DNA of 13,610 nt from Candidatus Levyibacteriota bacterium (lineage in GTDB: Bacteria > Patescibacteria > Microgenomatia > Levybacterales > UBA12049). Positions 882 to 13,307 of this stretch are shown here, piece by piece (within the stretch, counting starts at the first letter, position 1; every line of letters starts with the position of its first letter). The stretch spans positions 1-13,610 of the forward strand of contig PPGL01000050.1 of assembly GCA_003173915.1 (NCBI GenBank). The letters are read 5' to 3'. The translations under genes and the position numbers were made by a program. The notes beneath the pieces are model-generated. The model saw nothing but the letters and a program-made list of their open reading frames with translations, made no database searches and had not been told where the DNA came from.

Positions 882-2163
882 CATTCTTGACGTTTTTAGA
901 AAAAGTTGGGCTTCGCCAGAAGTCCGCGGCAAACTTCTTTTTACCGCTGCCATATTTGTTGTTTTCCGTTTTTTTGCTCACATTCCAGTAAGCGGAGTAA
1001 ATATTGCTAGTCTTAAAACCCTTTTTGCCCAAAATCAATTTTTAGGTTTGTTAGATATTTTTTCCGGAGGAGCATTAGCAAATTTTTCTGTCATGGGACT
1101 TGGTCTTAATCCCTATATCAATGCTTCTATTATTTTGCAGCTTTTAACAATGGTATTCCCAAAGCTTGAGGAACTTCAAAAAGAAGGAGATTCAGGAAGA
1201 CAGAAGATAAATCAATATACTCGCATGGTAACTGTTCCTTTGGCAGCGCTCCAGGCTTTTGGTATGTATGCACTGCTTCGCTCACAACACATTATCGCAA
1301 CTCTTTCAATTATTAATGTTATTGCTTTCATTCTTACTATGACCGCTGGAACAATGCTTGCCGTATGGCTTGGAGAACTTATCTCAGAAAAAGGAATAGG
1401 AAATGGTGTGTCCCTTCTTATTTTCGCAGGTATTATTGGAAGACTTCCTGTTGCTTTTACCCAAACTGCATCAACAGCAACTGCAGAAAATATGTTTAAC
1501 ATTCTGATTTTTGCTGCACTTGGCATTATTGTCATTGCTGCAATTGTTATTATTAACGAGGCAACTCGCCAAATTCCCGTGTTTTATGCAAAGCGAGTAA
1601 GAGGAAATAAAACATATGGTGGTCAGTCAACACATCTTCCTCTTCGACTAAATCAGGCAGGAGTTATTCCAATTATTTTTGCTGTGTCACTTGTCCTCAT
1701 TCCATCTCTTCTTGCAAATTATTTTACGAATTCAAAGGTTCCATTTTTCCACTCGTTGTCCAATGCCATTGTAACTGGATTTAATCCCAATGGGTGGTTA
1801 TATAATGCGGTGTATTTTATTCTTGTTGTCGGATTTACGTATTTTTATACAGCTGTTATTTTTAATCCAAAAAAAATTGCAGAGGATATTCAAAAGTATG
1901 GAGGATTTATTCCTGGAGTCAGACCTGGTACGCCAACAGCAAATTTTCTTAATTATGTTTTGACTCGCATTACCCTTGCTGGCGCATTATTTTTAGGTAT
2001 TATTGCTATCTTCCCTTCTCTTGCAAAAGAAATTACCGGTATCCAAACGCTTCTTCTTGGTGGAACAGGTGTTCTTATCGTTGTGAGTGTTGTTCTTGAG
2101 ACAGTAAAGGCTATCGAAGCACAACTTGTCATGCGCAACTACGATACATTTGTAGAGCAGTAA
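874..2163 (+). CDS. secY: Sec translocon channel subunit SecY
   Basis: SecY is the pore of the general secretion channel in the cytoplasmic membrane and works with SecE/SecG and the SecA motor. The 429-residue product fits the ten-helix family. Visible hallmarks are [15 protein letters not shown] (lateral-gate/plug region, about 73-87), [44 protein letters not shown], the cytoplasmic loop [22 protein letters not shown] used for SecA/ribosome binding, and the C-terminal [18 protein letters not shown] followed by [11 protein letters not shown]. The start is fixed by the 8-nt overlap with rplO. A 97-nt repeat-filled gap follows before adk. Confidence 0.98.
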
Positions 2164-2167
2164 GTTA

Positions 2168-2253
2168 GTTCAGAGTTAAGGGTTTAGGGTTCAGAGATAA
2201 GGATTATTTACGTAGGTTTCTCTACTATGAACTATCCACCCTAAACTATAAAC
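2168..2253. repeat. Inverted arrays of degenerate 7-nt repeats, secY-adk gap
   Basis: Five consecutive 7-nt units read on the + strand from 2168 to 2202 (consensus GTTNAGR). At least four units in the same register read on the - strand from 2253 back to 2226 (GTTTATA, GTTTAGG, GTGGATA, GTTCATA), with a weak fifth to 2219. The arms face each other across about 16-23 nt. Aligning the two arms unit by unit gives about 24 of 35 matches, so an imperfect hairpin is possible. Together they fill nearly all of the secY-adk gap. The family recurs at 3679, 5339 and 6960. Confidence 0.85.
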
Positions 2254-2260
2254 AAATACT

Positions 2261-2800
2261 ATGAAGATAATTCTTATTGGCATTCAGGGATCTGGAAAAT
2301 CTACACAAGGAAATCTTCTTTCAAAAGAATTAGGGATTCCGTATCTTTCCACAGGACACATTTTTCGTCAACTTGCACAAGAAGACACAGATTTAGGGAA
2401 ATATATTAAAGAAACAATGAATGCAGGGTATCTTATCCCTGATGAAAAAACACTCGAAATTGTTACCGAATATCTTGGGCGTCCAGAATACGAAAAAGGA
2501 TATATTCTTGATGGGTTTCCGAGAACCCTTACTCAAGCAGAATCATTTCAAAATGGTATTAATAAAGTCATGTATCTTAAAATATCCGATGAAGAAGCAC
2601 TAAGGCGTATTTCTCTTCGTAATTCAGGTAGAGCAGATGATACAAAAGAGGCAATCAAACGAAGAATTGAATTATTTCACACATTTACAGAGCCTGTTAT
2701 TGATTATTATCGCCAGAAAGGTGTTTTGGCAGAGGTAGACGGTGAAAAAACAATAGAGGAAATTTTTGAAAATATAAAAAAACATTTACCGCATGAGTAA
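2261..2800 (+). CDS. adk: Adenylate kinase, short-LID form
   Basis: Adk interconverts ATP + AMP and 2 ADP in the cytoplasm. The 179-residue product shows the P-loop GIQGSGKST (7-15), the AMP-binding segment LSTGHIFR (29-36), and the DGFPRT motif (84-89). The LID region is reduced to RNSGRADDTKEAIKRR (120-135), without the roughly 30-residue zinc-finger-like or beta-rich LID of the usual 214-residue enzyme. The arginines and Asp-Asp of the catalytic LID edge remain. The secY-adk-map order resembles the Gram-positive spc operon. The start follows a repeat-filled gap and lacks an obvious ribosome-binding site. The stop overlaps the next kinase by 8 nt (ATGAGTAA). A UMP/CMP kinase is a weaker alternative. 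Confidence 0.9.
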   Translation: MKIILIGIQGSGKSTQGNLLSKELGIPYLSTGHIFRQLAQEDTDLGKYIKETMNAGYLIPDEKTLEIVTEYLGRPEYEKGYILDGFPRTLTQAESFQNGINKVMYLKISDEEALRRISLRNSGRADDTKEAIKRRIELFHTFTEPVIDYYRQKGVLAEVDGEKTIEEIFENIKKHLPHE

Positions 2801-3356
2801 TATATCCTCACCAATACTTCTTGCTTTTGTTGGCATGCCAGGATCTGGAAAAACCGAGGCTGCCCAATATCTTAAAGAGAAGGGATATGCGTATGTTCGC
2901 TTTGGAGATGTTACAGAAAATCTACTACGGGAAAAGGGGTTACCAATAACTCCAGAAAATGAAAAGGAAATTCGAGAAACACTTCGGCAAGAATCGGGAA
3001 TGCAAGTATATGCCGAGAAATCCCTGCCTAGGATTAAAGATTTATTTCAAACGAACGCTGTTGTTGTCGTAGATGGTCTCTATTCTTGGGAAGAATACCT
3101 CTATTTACAAAAAAGAGAATTTAGCGTCGTTGTTGTACATATTTTTACAGAACGGGCAATCCGCTATGATCGATTAACGCATCGAACAATCCGTCCGTTG
3201 CAAAATGGAGAAGCATTTGCCCGCGATATTGCAGAAGTTGAAAAACTTAATAAAAGTGGTCCCATTGCTATTGCGGATTACCTTATCGAAAATAACGAGA
3301 CAAAAGAGGAATTATATGCTAAGCTAGACAAACTTTGTAAGAGGTTATCAATATGA
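2793..3356 (+). CDS. P-loop nucleotide kinase-like protein, UPF0200 / dephospho-CoA-kinase-like
   Basis: This 187-residue P-loop protein opens with a beta strand and Walker A GMPGSGKT (14-21). It then shows VRFGDVTENLLREKGLPITPEN (35-56), a Walker-B-like strand VVVVDGLYSWEE (90-101), and RYDRLTHRTIRP (124-134), where a LID-like arginine cluster would lie. The C-terminal ADYLIENN (161-168) resembles the closing strand of dephospho-CoA kinase-type folds. The GDV, 'GLPITPEN' and 'DGL.S.EE' segments match what I recall of archaeal UPF0200 proteins better than bacterial CoaE. The true substrate is unknown; a nucleotide or dephospho-CoA is plausible. It overlaps adk by 8 nt and map by 4 nt, so it is embedded in the translated string. 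Family assignment is moderate, substrate weak. Confidence 0.75.
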   Translation: MSNISSPILLAFVGMPGSGKTEAAQYLKEKGYAYVRFGDVTENLLREKGLPITPENEKEIRETLRQESGMQVYAEKSLPRIKDLFQTNAVVVVDGLYSWEEYLYLQKREFSVVVVHIFTERAIRYDRLTHRTIRPLQNGEAFARDIAEVEKLNKSGPIAIADYLIENNETKEELYAKLDKLCKRLSI

Positions 3357-4138
3357 TTTCTATTAAAAAACCAAACGAAATTGCAATTATGGAGAGAGCG
3401 GGCAAAATACTTGCCGAAGTCTTGTACGAAGTTCTTGATCACGTCAAGCCAGGCGTAACCGAACTTGAGCTTGATAGCCTAGCAGAAGAACTAACCCTCA
3501 AAAAAGGTGGCGAACCAGGCTTTAAAAAAGTTCCAGGGTATCATCATGCTATTTGTGTTGCGACAAATGATGTTGTTGTTCACGGTATCCCAACAAAGTA
3601 CAAATTAAAAGAAGACGATATTATTGGAATAGACTATGGTGTGTTTATGGAAGGTTTTCATACCGATATGGCTGAGACGATTAGGGTGACGGGTAAAGGG
3701 TTTAGGGTTCAGGATTCAGGGGAAGAGGATGCCATAGACAGGTTTTTGCGTATTGGTAAGCAAGGTATGCTTGATGGTATTGCTAAGGTAAAGCCTGGAA
3801 ACCACATTGGAGACATTTCTTGGGCAATTCAATCTCAAGTCGAAGGAAAAGGGGGATACTCTGTTACACGTAGCCTTATTGGTCACGGAGTGGGAAGAGA
3901 ACTTCATGAAGAACCGGAAGTTCCAGGGTATCTTGAAGGCCCAATCATTCGTACGCCCGAACTTATTCCTGGTATGACGATTGCAGTTGAGGTTATTTAT
4001 ACCATGGGAGGGCCGGAGGTCGTTTATTCGGGAGAGGACGACTGGACGATAAGAAGCGCGGACGGTAGCCTTGGAGGGCTATTTGAACGTACAGTTTTGG
4101 TTACCGAAAAGGGCCACAAGGTGATTACGGAGAGATAA
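3353..4138 (+). CDS. map: Type I methionine aminopeptidase
   Basis: Map removes the initiator methionine from nascent proteins. All five metal ligands of the pita-bread fold can be placed: D94 (GIDYGV), D105 (FHTDMAE), H178 (GHGVGRELHEEP), E213 (AVEVIY) and E245 (LFERTVLV). The substrate-binding H77 lies in VVVHGIP. At 261 residues it is near family length, but the spacing from D105 to H178 is 73 residues against 63 in the E. coli enzyme (numbering from memory). The extra residues fall at about 110-125 (start VTGKGFRVQDSGEED), exactly where the DNA carries the 7-nt repeat array. The ATG overlaps the previous stop (ATGA) and has GAGGT at 3341-3345 as a possible ribosome-binding site. Confidence 0.96.
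   Translation: MISIKKPNEIAIMERAGKILAEVLYEVLDHVKPGVTELELDSLAEELTLKKGGEPGFKKVPGYHHAICVATNDVVVHGIPTKYKLKEDDIIGIDYGVFMEGFHTDMAETIRVTGKGFRVQDSGEEDAIDRFLRIGKQGMLDGIAKVKPGNHIGDISWAIQSQVEGKGGYSVTRSLIGHGVGRELHEEPEVPGYLEGPIIRTPELIPGMTIAVEVIYTMGGPEVVYSGEDDWTIRSADGSLGGLFERTVLVTEKGHKVITER
3679..3727 (+). repeat. Intragenic 7-nt repeat array inside map
   Basis: Seven consecutive 7-nt units fit this stretch. The central four (GTAAAGG, GTTTAGG, GTTCAGG, ATTCAGG; 3693-3720) are close to the consensus seen in the secY-adk gap, and the flanking units are weaker. A 17-nt word, AAGGGTTTAGGGTTCAG, is identical at 3696-3712 and 2178-2194. The array is read in frame and encodes the extra residues around 110-125 of Map. 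Confidence 0.8.
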
Positions 4139-4167
4139 TTGCTCTTTTTCACTGTATTTGATATAAT
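4139..4167 (+). promoter_or_regulatory. Probable promoter for infA-rpmJ
   Basis: A -35-like TTGCTC (4139-4144) begins right after the map stop codon. It is separated by 17 nt from a perfect TATAAT (4162-4167) with an extended TG at 4159-4160. The infA ATG lies 19 nt past the -10, so a leader of roughly a dozen nucleotides is expected. No Shine-Dalgarno sequence is visible in it. Confidence 0.75.
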
Positions 4168-4186
4168 AAAACTCTTAAGTCTTTAG

Positions 4187-4402
4187 ATGGCGCATCAAGG
4201 ATCTATTGAAATGGAGGGAGTCGTTATTGAATCCCTCCCAAATACGTTATTTAGAGTACAGCTGCCAGATGAGTCAGTTGTACTTTGTACGTTATCCGGC
4301 AAAATGCGAATTCATTATGTAAAAATTTTGCCTGGAGATAGAGTACGAGTTGAAGTAACGCCCTATGATAAGACAAGAGGAAGGATTACGTATAGACTAT
4401 GA
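4187..4402 (+). CDS. infA: Translation initiation factor IF-1
   Basis: IF-1 binds the A site of the 30S subunit during initiation. The 71-residue product is a single OB-fold of standard length. It has the expected order [19 protein letters not shown], then [22 protein letters not shown], then [17 protein letters not shown]. The ATG at 4187 starts the family-typical N-terminus ([11 protein letters not shown]). The gene has its own promoter just upstream and ends in TGA, overlapping the rpmJ start as ATGA (4399-4402). The use of TGA as a stop here argues against a recoded genetic code. Confidence 0.97.
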
Positions 4403-4512
4403 AAGTACAAGCAAGTGTCAAACCACGATGTGCAAAATGCAAACTTATTAAACGCAAAGGCGTTGTACGGGTTGTTTGTGAAAATCCACGACATAAACAG
4501 CGACAAGGATAA
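4399..4512 (+). CDS. rpmJ: 50S ribosomal protein L36 (bL36), zinc-ribbon form
   Basis: This 37-residue gene (ATG 4399, TAA 4510-4512) is short enough to be missed by ordinary length cut-offs. It encodes [15 protein letters not shown], then [16 protein letters not shown] at the end. L36 is a small protein of the large subunit near the peptidyl-transferase side. The four zinc ligands are present as C11, C14, C27 and H32, so this is the metal-binding paralogue type. Its length is the usual 37 residues. It overlaps infA by 4 nt, and rpsM follows after 5 nt, the standard infA-rpmJ-rpsM order. Confidence 0.97.
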
Positions 4513-4517
4513 ATATT

Positions 4518-4925
4518 ATGAGAATTTCAGGTATTAATATTCCAGATGAAAAGCGAGTTGATATTTCGCTTACCTATATTTATGGAATTGGCCGAAGTAA
4601 TGCAAAAGATGTTTTGGTAAAAGCTAATGTCGATGGAGCAAAGCGAGTAAAAAATTTATCAGAAGACGAACAAAAAAGACTTCTCGATGTGTTATCAACA
4701 TATAAGCTCGAAGGAGATTTAAGAGCAGAAATCGTTGGAAATATTAAAAGATTAAAAGATAGCGGTACATATCGAGGGATGAGACACATGAGAAATCTTC
4801 CAGTGCATGGGCAACGAACCAGATCTAACGCACGTACCAAAAGGGGTAAGAGAGTAACCATTGGTGCAATCAAGAAAGAAGTAGCAGCAAAGATAGAAGC
4901 AGCTGCAACAACAAAAGCTAAGTAA
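4518..4925 (+). CDS. rpsM: 30S ribosomal protein S13 (uS13)
   Basis: S13 lies in the head of the small subunit, forms intersubunit bridges and contacts P-site tRNA through its basic tail. The 135-residue product starts RISGINIPDEKRVDISLTYIYGIG, the helix-two-turn-helix region. It continues through GDLRAEIVGNIKRLKDSGTYRG and the highly conserved RHMRNLPVHGQRTRSNARTKRG. The C-terminus (about 116-135) is an Ala/Lys/Glu extension, slightly longer than the E. coli protein (118 residues). It is followed by rpsK after 4 nt. Confidence 0.97.
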   Translation: MRISGINIPDEKRVDISLTYIYGIGRSNAKDVLVKANVDGAKRVKNLSEDEQKRLLDVLSTYKLEGDLRAEIVGNIKRLKDSGTYRGMRHMRNLPVHGQRTRSNARTKRGKRVTIGAIKKEVAAKIEAAATTKAK

Positions 4926-4929
4926 TACT

Positions 4930-5334
4930 ATGGCAGACGAAACAAAAAAAACAGTTGTAACAAAAAAGAAAAAAGCAGGAGCCGTTGCAACACAACGAGG
5001 CAAACTATATATTACAGCAACCTTTAACAACACGCTTGTTACGGTAACAAACGATAAAGGCGAAACAGTTACGTGGAGTTCATCTGGTTCTAAAGGATAC
5101 AAGGGAACACGAAAATCCACTCCATATGCAGCAAGTGTTGCTGTTGAGGATGCAGCAAAGCGTGCTCTTGAAAAAGGAATTAAAGCTGTTGATATTTTTA
5201 TAAAAGGTCCAGGATCGGGTCGAGATTCTGGTCTTCGAGCAGTAAAAACAGCAGGACTCTCAATTAGTTCGATTACTGATATTACACCAATCCCGCATAA
5301 TGGACCGCGGGCAAAAAAGAAAAGAAGAGTGTAA
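4930..5334 (+). CDS. rpsK: 30S ribosomal protein S11 (uS11)
   Basis: S11 lies on the platform of the 30S subunit beside the mRNA exit. After a basic N-terminal extension (residues 1-23, Lys/Thr-rich), the 134-residue protein shows YITATFNNTLVTVTNDKGE. SSGSKGYKGTRKSTPYAA and IKGPGSGRDSGLRAVKTAGL follow, and it ends with DITPIPHNGPRAKKKRRV. The Asn-Gly in PHNG is the family site of isoaspartate formation in E. coli. The gene is followed by an 88-nt gap filled by the 7-nt repeat arrays. Confidence 0.97.
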   Translation: MADETKKTVVTKKKKAGAVATQRGKLYITATFNNTLVTVTNDKGETVTWSSSGSKGYKGTRKSTPYAASVAVEDAAKRALEKGIKAVDIFIKGPGSGRDSGLRAVKTAGLSISSITDITPIPHNGPRAKKKRRV

Positions 5335-5338
5335 TCTA

Positions 5339-5416
5339 ATTCAGAATTTATAGTTCAGAATTAAGAGTTAGACAGAATATTTTTAATTTTGAATTCTACA
5401 TTTTGAATTCTAAATT
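5339..5416. repeat. Inverted arrays of degenerate 7-nt repeats, rpsK-rpsD gap
   Basis: The + strand reads 7-nt units from 5339 to 5373 (ATTCAGA, ATTTATA, GTTCAGA, ATTAAGA, GTTAGAC). The - strand reads five units in the same register from 5416 back to 5382 (ATTTAGA, ATTCAAA, ATGTAGA, ATTCAAA, ATTAAAA). The consensus is RTTNARA. The arms face each other across 8 nt, with about 24 of 35 positions matching when aligned unit by unit. Only 6 nt separate the array from the rpsD start codon. Confidence 0.82.
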
Positions 5417-5422
5417 TTATTT

Positions 5423-6025
5423 ATGGCACGATATACAGGACCAAAACATAGAATTGCACGACGAGAAGGAGTAAATATCCTTGATAAAACTTCTGCCTCT
5501 CTTCAGAGAAGACTGGGACAAACCCCAGGAGTGCATGGTGCAAAAAGAAAGAGAAAACTTTCTGAGTTTGGTATTCAACTTCGAGAAAAACAAAAAGCAA
5601 AAGCAATGTATGGACTTTTGGAAAAACAATTTAAAAATATGGTACACGCTGTTGCTACTCAAACAGGGGACACGGGAGAGCTTCTTATTGCAGCACTTGA
5701 AACACGTCTTGATAATATTGTGTATAGGTTAGGTTTTGGAAAAACAAGATATCAGGCTCGACAGCTTGTTTCTCATGGACATGTGTTAGTAAACGGCAAA
5801 AAAGTAACAATTCCTTCTTTTCACGTTGCCGAAGGAACTGTTGTTACACTAGCTACAAAAATGCAAGCAAATGCACAAGTGACAAAGCTTACAGAGGAAA
5901 ACAAAGTTGTTTTACCATTCCTTGAGAAAAAAGGACTTGCTGGAAAGCTTGTTAGGATGCCAAAACACGCAGATGTTGAGGTTCCTTTTGACACAAGATT
6001 GATTGTTGAATATTATTCTCGTTAA
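5423..6025 (+). CDS. rpsD: 30S ribosomal protein S4 (uS4), zinc-free form
   Basis: S4 is a primary 16S-binding protein that nucleates 30S assembly and helps form the mRNA entry pore. The 200-residue product begins MARYTGPKHRIARREG and carries the S4 RNA-binding domain (ETRLDNIVYRLGFGKTRYQARQLVSHGHVLVNGKKVTIPSF, about 93-133). It has no cysteines in the N-terminal domain, so it is the zinc-independent type. In E. coli S4 represses its own operon, but no equivalent target is obvious here; the heptad array lies directly upstream. The 3' coding end also contains the rpoA promoter. Confidence 0.97.
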   Translation: MARYTGPKHRIARREGVNILDKTSASLQRRLGQTPGVHGAKRKRKLSEFGIQLREKQKAKAMYGLLEKQFKNMVHAVATQTGDTGELLIAALETRLDNIVYRLGFGKTRYQARQLVSHGHVLVNGKKVTIPSFHVAEGTVVTLATKMQANAQVTKLTEENKVVLPFLEKKGLAGKLVRMPKHADVEVPFDTRLIVEYYSR

Positions 6026-6034
6026 TGCTATAAT
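6006..6034 (+). promoter_or_regulatory. Strong internal promoter for rpoA, inside the rpsD 3' end
   Basis: A -35 TTGAAT (6006-6011) is followed by a 17-nt spacer and a perfect -10 TATAAT (6029-6034), with the extended-10 TG at 6026-6027. The -35 and spacer start within the last rpsD codons. The expected transcription start falls at about 6041-6042, which is the rpoA ATG, so the transcript would be leaderless. Confidence 0.85.
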
Positions 6035-6041
6035 ACCATTT

Positions 6042-6959
6042 ATGATTGATCCGATTTTCACAGTTAAAGAAGCTAAAAATACAGGCGATTATGGACAATT
6101 TGTTGTTGGTCCACTCGAACCAGGATTTGGATACACAATTGGCCATGCAATGCGACGAATTCTTCTTACTTCAATTCCAGGAGCATCCATTACCTCTGTA
6201 AGAATCAATGGCGTAAAGCACAGATTTTCACAACTTCCAGGACTCAAAGAAAATATCGTTGATTTCCTTCTTAATGTTAAAGGTCTTTCTATACGATTTA
6301 CAGGTAGTAAAAAAACAGCAACGCTTAAGCTTTCTGTTAAAGGACCAAAGGAAATTACTGGAGCAGACGTTGAAGCCACAGACGGTGCAGAAGTTGTCAA
6401 TAAAGATCACTATCTTGGATATCTTTCAGATAAAAAACTTGACATGGAAATGACTGTTGAGGAAGGATATGGATACTCACTCGCTGAAGAACGATCTTCT
6501 TCCGAACTGGGTGTTATCCAAACAGATGCAATCTTTACTCCAATTCAAAGAGTAAATTATTCAGTAAGAGCAACTCGTGTTGGTCGCCGAACAGACATGG
6601 ACGAATTAGTACTTGAAATTTGGACAAATGGTTCTGTCAATCCAAAAGCAGCACTTGATGAAACTGCAAAGCTTTTGTCAACGTATTTTGCCCAAGTATA
6701 CGAACCAAAAACAGCAGCAGTAACAGAAGGAGCAGCAGTAACATCATCTATTTCCGATGATTTACTCAAATTAACTATCGATGAACTCGATCTTCCAACA
6801 AGAATTTACAACAGTCTCCGAAATGGAGGAATCGAAACAGTTGGTCAACTTCTTTCAACACCTCGAAAAGATTTAGTTTCTATGAGAAATATGGGAGCAA
6901 AATCTATTTCTGTTATCGAAGAAAAGTTACAAGAAAAAGGGATATCGTTAAACGTATAA
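6042..6959 (+). CDS. rpoA: DNA-directed RNA polymerase subunit alpha
   Basis: Alpha dimerises to scaffold RNA polymerase, and its C-terminal domain contacts upstream promoter DNA and activators. The 305-residue product has the N-terminal assembly domain (about 1-225, including GPLEPGFGYTIGHAMRRILL and the late EIWTNGSVNPKAAL). A short linker follows, then the helix-hairpin-helix C-terminal domain (about 242-305). Residues matching E. coli R265, N268, G296, K298 and S299, which contact UP elements, are kept as R254, N257, G285, K287 and S288. I chose the ATG at 6042 because it follows the promoter at the expected distance and gives the usual MIDPIFTV-type N-terminus. An upstream TTG at 6003 would only add residues overlapping rpsD. 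Confidence 0.96.
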   Translation: MIDPIFTVKEAKNTGDYGQFVVGPLEPGFGYTIGHAMRRILLTSIPGASITSVRINGVKHRFSQLPGLKENIVDFLLNVKGLSIRFTGSKKTATLKLSVKGPKEITGADVEATDGAEVVNKDHYLGYLSDKKLDMEMTVEEGYGYSLAEERSSSELGVIQTDAIFTPIQRVNYSVRATRVGRRTDMDELVLEIWTNGSVNPKAALDETAKLLSTYFAQVYEPKTAAVTEGAAVTSSISDDLLKLTIDELDLPTRIYNSLRNGGIETVGQLLSTPRKDLVSMRNMGAKSISVIEEKLQEKGISLNV

Positions 6960-7037
6960 GTCAAAAGTCAAAGGTCAAAAGTCAAAATATAACACGCTAT
7001 TTTCCTAACAGTCGGCTTTTGAATTCTTACTTTTGAC
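6960..7037. repeat. Inverted arrays of 7-nt repeats, rpoA-rplQ gap
   Basis: Four nearly perfect 7-nt units, consensus GTCAAAR, run on the + strand from 6960 to 6987, starting at the first base after the rpoA stop. The - strand reads GTCAAAA (7037-7031), GTAAGAA and TTCAAAA (7023-7017), then two eroded units to 7003. The outermost units of the two arms are perfectly complementary. The gap is 93 nt, close to the 97 and 88 nt of the other two arrays. rplQ starts 15 nt beyond. Confidence 0.85.
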
Positions 7038-7052
7038 TTTTTTTATTAGCAT

Positions 7053-7532
7053 ATGAGAAAACAAGTATTTGGAAGAAAATTACAACGTGATACAAATGAG
7101 AGAAAGGCTTTATTTAAAAGTCTTATGACTTCTCTTATTGAAAAAGAGAGCATCAAAACAACAGAAGCAAAAGCAAAGGCAGTTAAGGGAGAGATGGAAA
7201 AGCTTGTAACAAAAGCCAGAGATAATGGTGCGCAAGCAGAAAGAGCACTGCAAGCATATTTTTCCGCACCTGTTATGAGAAAGCTTATCAGCGATATTGC
7301 TCCTCGCTTTGTCGGACGTCCAGGTGGATACACACGAATTATTAAAATTGGTAACAGACTTCGAGACAATGCAAAGATGGTAGTTTTAGAATGGGTGGAG
7401 AAACCAGCAGCTAAAACTGCAAAGACAGTAAAAGCAGCAGAAAAAGTAGAAGCAGAGAAAACAGTTGAAACACCAAAAAAGAAAACAGTAAAGAAAGCTG
7501 AAAAGAAAGAAATAAAGGAGAAGAAAAAGTAA
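7053..7532 (+). CDS. rplQ: 50S ribosomal protein L17 (bL17) with Lys/Ala/Glu-rich tail
   Basis: L17 is a bacteria-specific large-subunit protein near the peptide exit tunnel. Residues 1-116 are the conserved domain (RKLQRDTNERKALFKSLMTSLIE, then TTEAKAKAVKGEMEKLVT, then GGYTRIIKIGNRLRDNAKMVVLE). Residues 117-159 form a low-complexity tail of Lys, Ala, Glu, Thr and Val, predicted to be disordered or a charged helix. This makes the protein longer than the 127-residue E. coli version. The stop overlaps the rplM start by one base (TAATG). AAGGAG at 7515-7520 inside the tail sits 11 nt before the rplM ATG and could act as its ribosome-binding site. Confidence 0.96.
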   Translation: MRKQVFGRKLQRDTNERKALFKSLMTSLIEKESIKTTEAKAKAVKGEMEKLVTKARDNGAQAERALQAYFSAPVMRKLISDIAPRFVGRPGGYTRIIKIGNRLRDNAKMVVLEWVEKPAAKTAKTVKAAEKVEAEKTVETPKKKTVKKAEKKEIKEKKK

Positions 7533-11407: not shown

Positions 11408-11421
11408 GGTTTGATTTCGTG

Positions 11422-11492
11422 TCGGGGATCGGGGAATTGAACCCCAGCCGCACGCACCCCATGCGCGTATTCTACCGTTAAACTAATCCCCG
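11422..11492 (-). tRNA. tRNA-Pro, anticodon GGG
   Basis: On the minus strand a complete 71-nt cloverleaf can be drawn. The 7-bp acceptor stem is CGGGGAT/ATCCCCG, the D arm has a loop containing AACGGTA, and the anticodon stem is CGCGC/GCGTG with loop ATGGGGT (anticodon GGG, complement of 11458-11460). The variable loop has 4 nt, and the T arm TGGGG/CCCCG carries TTCAATT. The C1-G72 pair and discriminator A73 are the bacterial proline identity elements. The CCA end is not encoded (CAC follows G72), so it must be added by a nucleotidyltransferase. It reads CCC and CCT codons. Confidence 0.97.
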
Positions 11493-13182: not shown

Positions 13183-13187
13183 TAGTT

Positions 13188-13297
13188 TGTCATTCCGGAA
13201 TCCATTTCTTGTATAGATTCCCGCTTTCGCGGGAATGACAAGGAAGAGATCCTAAAACCCGTTCGGCGAACTCAGCGCAGGTAAGTTCAGGATGACA
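13188..13297. repeat. Composite palindromic intergenic repeat, dRS3-like
   Basis: The block is clearly GC-richer than its surroundings. Its core is a perfect hairpin (ATTCCCGC 13217-13224, loop TTTC, GCGGGAAT 13229-13236), which fits the Neisseria dRS3 pattern ATTCCC-N8-GGGAAT. GTCATTCC (13189-13196) pairs with GGAATGAC (13232-13239). A second palindrome, GTTCG-G-CGAAC, lies at 13261-13271. The block ends with GGATGACA, so TGTCAT and ATGACA bound it. This looks like a dispersed, possibly mobilised, non-coding element. It does not end in a T-run, so a simple terminator is not the best reading. Confidence 0.75.
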
Positions 13298-13301
13298 TAA
13301 T
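13296..13301 (+). promoter_or_regulatory. Possible -10 box for recX at the edge of the repeat
   Basis: CATAAT overlaps the last bases of the palindromic repeat and ends 6 nt before the recX ATG. There is no matching -35. The position fits the leaderless pattern, but recX may instead be read through from recA. Confidence 0.4.
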
Positions 13302-13307
13302 ATATTC

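Follow-up and report, generated by a model that had tools for sequence, protein, structure and literature searches.

Heptanucleotide tandem arrays in the gaps of a Levyibacteriota ribosomal operon and within conserved enzyme genes of its relatives: a probable genome-wide class with a seven-base step

What fills the long gaps of an otherwise gene-tight ribosomal operon, and does it belong to the gaps at all? We address this question for a Candidatus Levyibacteriota bacterium (contig PPGL01000050.1, assembly GCA_003173915.1), where "the window" denotes the whole 13,610-nt stretch analysed. The names of its ribosomal-operon genes (secY, adk, rpsK, rpsD, rpoA, rplQ and so on) are assignments by the initial annotation and by us, whereas the identity of Map is backed by sequence matches to solved structures; a second kinase-like ORF (2793-3356) lies between adk and map and has counterparts of 28-55% identity in some relatives. 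The initial annotation had described facing arrays of 7-nt units in the secY-adk, rpsK-rpsD and rpoA-rplQ gaps, whose lengths of 97, 88 and 93 nt are correct by coordinates, and had read them as a defined, inverted element type. The features at issue, with a tRNA gene further along the window, are as follows.

2168..2202, + strand: heptads on the left side of the secY-adk gap (GTTNAGR exact in four, approximate in a fifth)
2212..2253, - strand: opposing heptads of the same gap, degenerate but all in one 7-nt phase (lag-7 p = 0.01)
2175-2190 / 2238-2253: inverted pair of the secY-adk gap
3691..3720, + strand: heptad array within map, in-frame reading in the GKGFRVQDSGEE region
5338..5364, + strand: rpsK-rpsD gap, left arm, with units resembling ATTCAGA
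5383..5419, - strand: right arm of the rpsK-rpsD gap, weak by itself (p = 0.08)
6958..6988, + strand: rpoA-rplQ gap, left arm, built of GTCAAAA units, its first bases overlapping the rpoA stop codon
7016..7041, - strand: rpoA-rplQ gap, right arm, with a short T run after it
11421-11492, - strand: tRNA-Pro (GGG)

The arrays themselves are real. The left arm of the secY-adk gap reads GTTCAGA, GTTAAGG, GTTTAGG and GTTCAGA, all exact GTTNAGR, together with GATAAGG at one mismatch, and it faces five degenerate opposite-strand units in a single 7-nt phase: GTTTATA, GTTTAGG, GTGGATA, GTTCATA and GTAGAGA (one exact, three with one mismatch and one with two). Lag-7 identity amounts to 17/21 in this left arm, a value reached by 0 of 2000 dinucleotide shuffles, and to 13/21 in the right one (p = 0.01 by the same shuffles). 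The facing design is shared by the other two gaps, each with its own unit as had been proposed, in rpoA-rplQ with 19/21 in the left arm (0 of 2000 shuffles) and p = 0.01 in the right, and in rpsK-rpsD with p = 0.0035 on the left and p = 0.08 on the right. When eleven stretches of the window (ten gaps and the map stretch) were tested whole against 500 dinucleotide shuffles each, lag 7 was significant for secY-adk, rpoA-rplQ and the map stretch (0/500 in every case), rpsK-rpsD gave p = 0.06 at lag 7 with a strong lag 14, and the remaining gaps among the eleven had no significant lag-7 signal. The map array had been absent from the initial annotation; it lies in frame within the gene, and the window's Map carries about 9 extra residues at this position relative to the best-matching solved structure.

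To place these arrays in a wider setting we scanned stretches of seven related CPR genomes (1.14 Mb), calling an array at 18/21 lag-7 matches after exclusion of simple repeats (lag 1-4 self-similarity limit of 0.62, or 0.60 in the inverted-partner test below). Lag 7 yielded 113 arrays, against 0, 0, 7, 7 and 3 at lags 5, 6, 8, 9 and 10, and lag 14 yielded 64; the stretches from G004, G002 and G008 were picked on contigs with pattern matches, so that densities are biased while the period is unaffected. A skeptic might hold that A+T-rich low-complexity sequence simply looks periodic, and the right arms of the window's gaps, weak when taken alone (p = 0.01, 0.08 and 0.01), could be cited for this. 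Yet none of 20 shuffles of the whole window contained a stretch with 17/21 lag-7 identity, 34 of the 113 arrays come from a genome sample of 51% G+C, and the lag spectrum refutes chance outright, leaving it a negligible share of our belief.

Array sites in relatives are dispersed, many per genome, but they are not confined to gaps: 62 of the 113 arrays were called coding, 46 in gaps and 5 across an edge (calls by a custom codon-model caller rather than a trained gene finder). The "defined element type" of the initial annotation hence survives as a definable array class and fails as a gap element, the window itself holding one array inside map. Its general unit form, RTYNARR, likewise describes a tendency and no strict rule; a four-unit pattern searched over 286 genomes of the phylum gave 607 matches in 95 genomes, compared with 406 in 93 for the backward pattern used as control. 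Nor is the inverted layout defining. Among 304 arrays compared with within-genome swaps (12 of 316 were omitted, their genomes having fewer than 5 others), 29 ranked within the top 5% by inverted-partner score where about 15 were expected, i.e. about a twofold excess, made up of 19/212 intergenic (10.6 expected) and 10/92 coding arrays (4.6 expected), whereas the mean inverted-partner score was not shifted relative to swapped arrays (Wilcoxon p of 0.50 intergenic and 0.56 coding). Facing arms are thus weakly enriched and a minority feature.

Arrays within genes provide a ruler for the process behind them. In G004 they are read as peptides such as NSKFKIQNSK and NSQLSTLNSQ within enzymes, and their coding context is secure because each of the ten array proteins tested has a Pfam family match (RecR, LeuRS, GAPDH, RsmH, Fmt and TsaD are among the ten). 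Relative to the best-matching solved structures, the extra residues at the array number about 16 in GAPDH, 12 in TsaD, 6 in RecR and 5 in RsmH; the Fmt array of G004 entails no net insertion, and the Pgk array of G004 equals the corresponding G008 loop in length. In a survey of exact runs over 1.99 Mb from 15 genomes, coding sequence held none of 24-25 nt and 37 of at least 26 nt, 35 of these at 26-34 nt, a size of ~4.5 units that matches what a +21-nt in-frame step would give. Intergenic sequence held 15 runs of at least 26 nt and a smoother fall-off from short to long; counts at 21-27 versus 28-34 nt were 15/29 in coding and 20/9 in intergenic sequence (p = 0.0044, with bins chosen after seeing the data). 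Since 13 of those 15 intergenic runs also measure 26-34 nt, however, the frame need not be what sets array size, which may be intrinsic. Among periods 5-12 other than 7, exact runs of at least 3.5 copies numbered three in the same 1.99 Mb, all of period 8. All 37 coding units are stop-free, which adds no evidence because it is forced once three units sit in an ORF. The 17 exact coding arrays of G004 comprise 11 different units, with a mean pairwise difference of 2.15 of 7 positions versus 3.06 for random heptads, and share a unit core that is often TCAA on the coding strand.

Comparison of orthologous loops reveals turnover of the units. We aligned loci for GAPDH (30 of 65 matching genomes), Map (30 of 72, plus 3 others) and RsmH (30 of 65, plus 1), and among these aligned loci perfect arrays of at least 26 nt occupy the same loop in 7/30, 6/33 and 9/31 cases, built from 6, 5 and 6 different units, respectively. 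In four species the GAPDH loop is of equal length and the array start and length (32-33 nt) agree within one base, yet two of them have ATTCAAA as the unit and one each GTTCAGA and GTTCAAA. On a 30-taxon tree computed with the loops left out of the input, and read for topology only, the array-bearing species are scattered, and the neighbours G320/G303 and G297/G004 differ in unit. To the Map loop series the window contributes an imperfect array (units near GGGTTYA) that is not counted among the six perfect ones; the length of this loop varies among relatives. In RsmH, 15 of 31 species have a loop of 32 aa, six with an array and nine without. As a separate observation made by eye, GAPDH (L139-L168), ArgS (L053) and Map (L169-L198, L003) of relatives contain G+C-rich palindromes that are apparently read in frame, giving peptides such as DPSTSSGQG in these conserved enzymes.

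We consider it probable, at roughly 0.58, that the gap arrays belong to a genome-wide class of heptanucleotide tandems made and renewed by seven-base re-copying and filtered by the reading frame. In this putative process an error of DNA synthesis would re-copy the last seven bases several times, both making and renewing arrays. Between genes any number of units would survive; within genes mainly additions of three units (+21 nt) would, the frame being kept. The window's gaps would then be tolerated places for arrays, and their facing arms a by-product, whether of fold-back copying or of two arrays laid down in opposite sense, some of them perhaps retained as RNA stems. We favor iterated seven-base re-copying because there is a single period, because arrays in genes have a characteristic size and because whole arrays are renewed.

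The gaps of relatives bear on a further possibility, namely that intergenic arrays are functional RNA stem-loops, selected for pairing while their sequence drifts and serving as processing sites, stabilizers, attenuators or stop-to-start bridges in ribosomal operons. The three window gaps contain inverted pairs of 16, 27 and 25 nt, and RNA folding, a check suggested by the initial annotation, gives predicted z values of -2.0, -4.1 and -3.9 (secY-adk, rpsK-rpsD and rpoA-rplQ). A search with RpoA returned 12 loci, the nearest at 82% identity (L001, L002) and 7 of the 12 titled Levyibacteriota or Levybacteria; in 9 of the 12 the rpoA-rplQ gap is long (72-198 nt), with folding z of -1.7 to -6.2 and a sequence of its own in each, and several of the predicted stems begin at the stop codon and extend as far as a T run ahead of the next ATG. 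Only 2 of these 9 long gaps (L006, L009) reach the lag-7 array threshold, other likenesses having been noted by eye, so that the conserved hairpin and the arrays may be two different things. At the other two sites most relatives have no such gap: the secY-adk junction is at most 5 nt in 7 of 8 relatives with both genes matched (70 nt of other sequence in L006), and rpsK-rpsD at most 16 nt in 8 of 11 (77 and 83 nt with lag-7 arrays in L007 and L010, and 117 nt with another repeat in L006). Because these junctions are short in most relatives, the long gaps of the window there look like additions to formerly short ones, which counts for the re-copying reading.

Selection for pairing likewise leaves the coding majority of arrays aside. 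Among gaps of at least 45 nt, arrays occur in 26/365 co-directional, 4/64 convergent and 7/135 divergent cases; an mRNA-processing or stabilizing role, as floated by the initial annotation, is unsupported as the general cause because divergent gaps carry arrays about as often as others. Terminators or processing elements are unsupported as the general cause in view of the same divergent placement, which is not expected of intrinsic terminators, and of terminator-like matches, of which there are six in window positions 2100-7100 and none inside the three gaps. Individual hairpins may still act at the RNA level, but as an explanation of the intergenic arrays we regard functional stem-loops as quite unlikely. 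By eye, a TTGCTCTTT...TATAAT-like stretch opens the map-infA gap (4139-4186) and is seen again in L001, L004, L007, L009 and L010 among others; it may be a promoter.

Could the arrays instead be small mobile palindromic elements, akin to Rickettsia palindromic elements or REPs and moved in trans by a hairpin-acting Y1 (RAYT-like) transposase? Near-identical hairpins lie in two neighboring gaps of L007, with similar pairs in L006 and L003 (all by eye), and the presence of arrays in frame within genes would suit such elements. Y1_Tnp is found in 66 of 95 genomes with arrays versus 71 of 191 without (OR 3.85, p = 4e-7) and in 33 of 38 array-rich genomes versus 104 of 248 others (OR 9.1), both figures ignoring kinship and base composition. 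Weaker or absent correlates are rve, RVT_1 (reverse transcriptase; OR 1.62, p = 0.07 for genomes with arrays and OR 2.55, p = 0.01 for rich genomes) and DinB, the last rejected as a cause for want of any association (OR 0.77, p = 0.31). The flanks of Y1_Tnp genes tell against the transposase as mover despite this strong co-occurrence: of 15 flanks from array-bearing genomes, 11 have G+C-rich perfect palindromes and one a heptad array, whereas REP elements would be expected to flank their cognate RAYT (Y1) gene, and the Y1_Tnp of L013 is also flanked by G+C-rich palindromes (by eye). Moreover, the coding arrays are not copies of one sequence, since the 17 of G004 fall into 11 units and lack the conserved element sequence that marks Rickettsia palindromic elements, and for most arrays an inverted partner is not significant. 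The link between Y1 transposase and arrays may accordingly be indirect, and we hold mobile palindromes to be a doubtful source of the arrays. Two further observations concern palindromes as such: in L083, L085, L087, L089, L090, L093, L094 and L095 the individual Y1 copies are apparently each accompanied by a palindrome of their own, in many cases on both flanks, and in the window the gap between recA and the next gene (13183-13307) contains two palindromic pieces, one of them REP-like (GTCATTCC ... GGGAATGAC), with z = -3.1 for the predicted fold of the gap.

Seven-base re-copying with a frame filter, our preferred reading, meets difficulties of its own. The slippage-driven growth suggested by the initial annotation is a live option in a slippage-like form, but plain slippage would change length by 7, and the RsmH and Fmt data are against it; the 32-aa RsmH loop of 15 of 31 species, present with and without an array, and the shared unit core both resist it. 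Given that unchanged length and the Fmt array without net insertion, either length-neutral homogenization or a paired loss and gain of 21 nt is needed. A shared core, often TCAA, is not expected if any local word can be re-copied, the twin hairpins of L007 look like copying of a whole element, and the strong Y1 transposase association stands against re-copying and finds no explanation in it. Because the 26-34 nt size is found for exact runs between genes as well, one can conceive of a fixed burst, in which a telomerase-like CPR activity would re-copy a seven-base template about three times per event, leave perfect arrays of ~31 nt (4.5 units) and keep rewriting the same enzyme loops in frame. 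We rate this as unlikely; if true, loops of conserved enzymes would be renewed by DNA-level stutter and not by point mutation.

Heptanucleotide repeats are already known from cyanobacteria, Beggiatoaceae, Bacteroidetes and Xanthomonas, and the likeness that the initial annotation saw to repeats of other bacteria is supported. The STRR repeats of heterocystous cyanobacteria are seven-nt tandem units between genes, alike in that respect and different in their units and hosts. In the available text of MacGregor (2015; PMC4679880), TAACTGA direct repeats of Beggiatoaceae, Cyanobacteria and Bacteroidetes are tandem and mostly intergenic, and occur within ribosomal operons (upstream of S4 among other places) and in some ORFs, where they lie in the stop-free orientation. 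There a single unit prevails per genome, and copies within ORFs mostly encode protein termini or belong to hypothetical proteins, whereas CPR arrays have many units per genome, often lie amid conserved enzymes, and further differ in their 4.5-unit size and their unit turnover at orthologous sites. TAACTGA was not found as a unit in the arrays of the three window gaps; the unit GTTATCA in the rpoA-rplQ gap of L009 (10926-10953) is its reverse complement up to rotation. As far as the available part of PMC4692102 goes, the GGGAATC and GGGGA(T/C)T heptads of Xanthomonas and Nostoc are similarly dispersed, with variable unit positions and also convergent inverted pairs, so that inverted heptad pairs were already known in Xanthomonas, but they are G-rich, quadruplex-capable and under-represented on the coding strand of ORFs.

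Elements inserted within genes offer a second comparison. According to the portions available of PMC10969869, Rickettsia palindromic elements are also inserted in frame within unrelated protein genes, but they are about 150 bp long, palindromic and grouped in sequence families, while CPR arrays are about 30 nt, have only the period and a loose core in common, and often contain no palindrome. Borg tandem repeats, again from a partial view of the source (PMC9879509), are likewise perfect and lie about half in ORFs without breaking them; their ORF units have lengths divisible by three, whereas CPR arrays, with a unit of 7, preserve the frame through the number of units. Literature searches that combined CPR or Patescibacteria with palindromes or repeats of this sort found no report among the papers listed, which is weak evidence of absence given that subscription journals were largely beyond reach. 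A suggestion from 2007, repeated in the available parts of PMC4679880 and PMC4692102, is that heptamers mirror the stretch of DNA within a polymerase's grip.

Heptanucleotide repeats of bacteria have thus been noted before without an accepted cause. In CPR bacteria the signal is unusually pure, at period 7 and its multiples, it sits within conserved enzymes, and its turnover can be followed at known positions; with the reading frame as a ruler, the pure period and this turnover allow the process to be measured, both in its step and in its burst size. The arrays also show that conserved proteins of reduced genomes accommodate segments made of repeats, and they call for caution among those who annotate CPR genomes or predict structures from them, as such loops may arise at the level of DNA.
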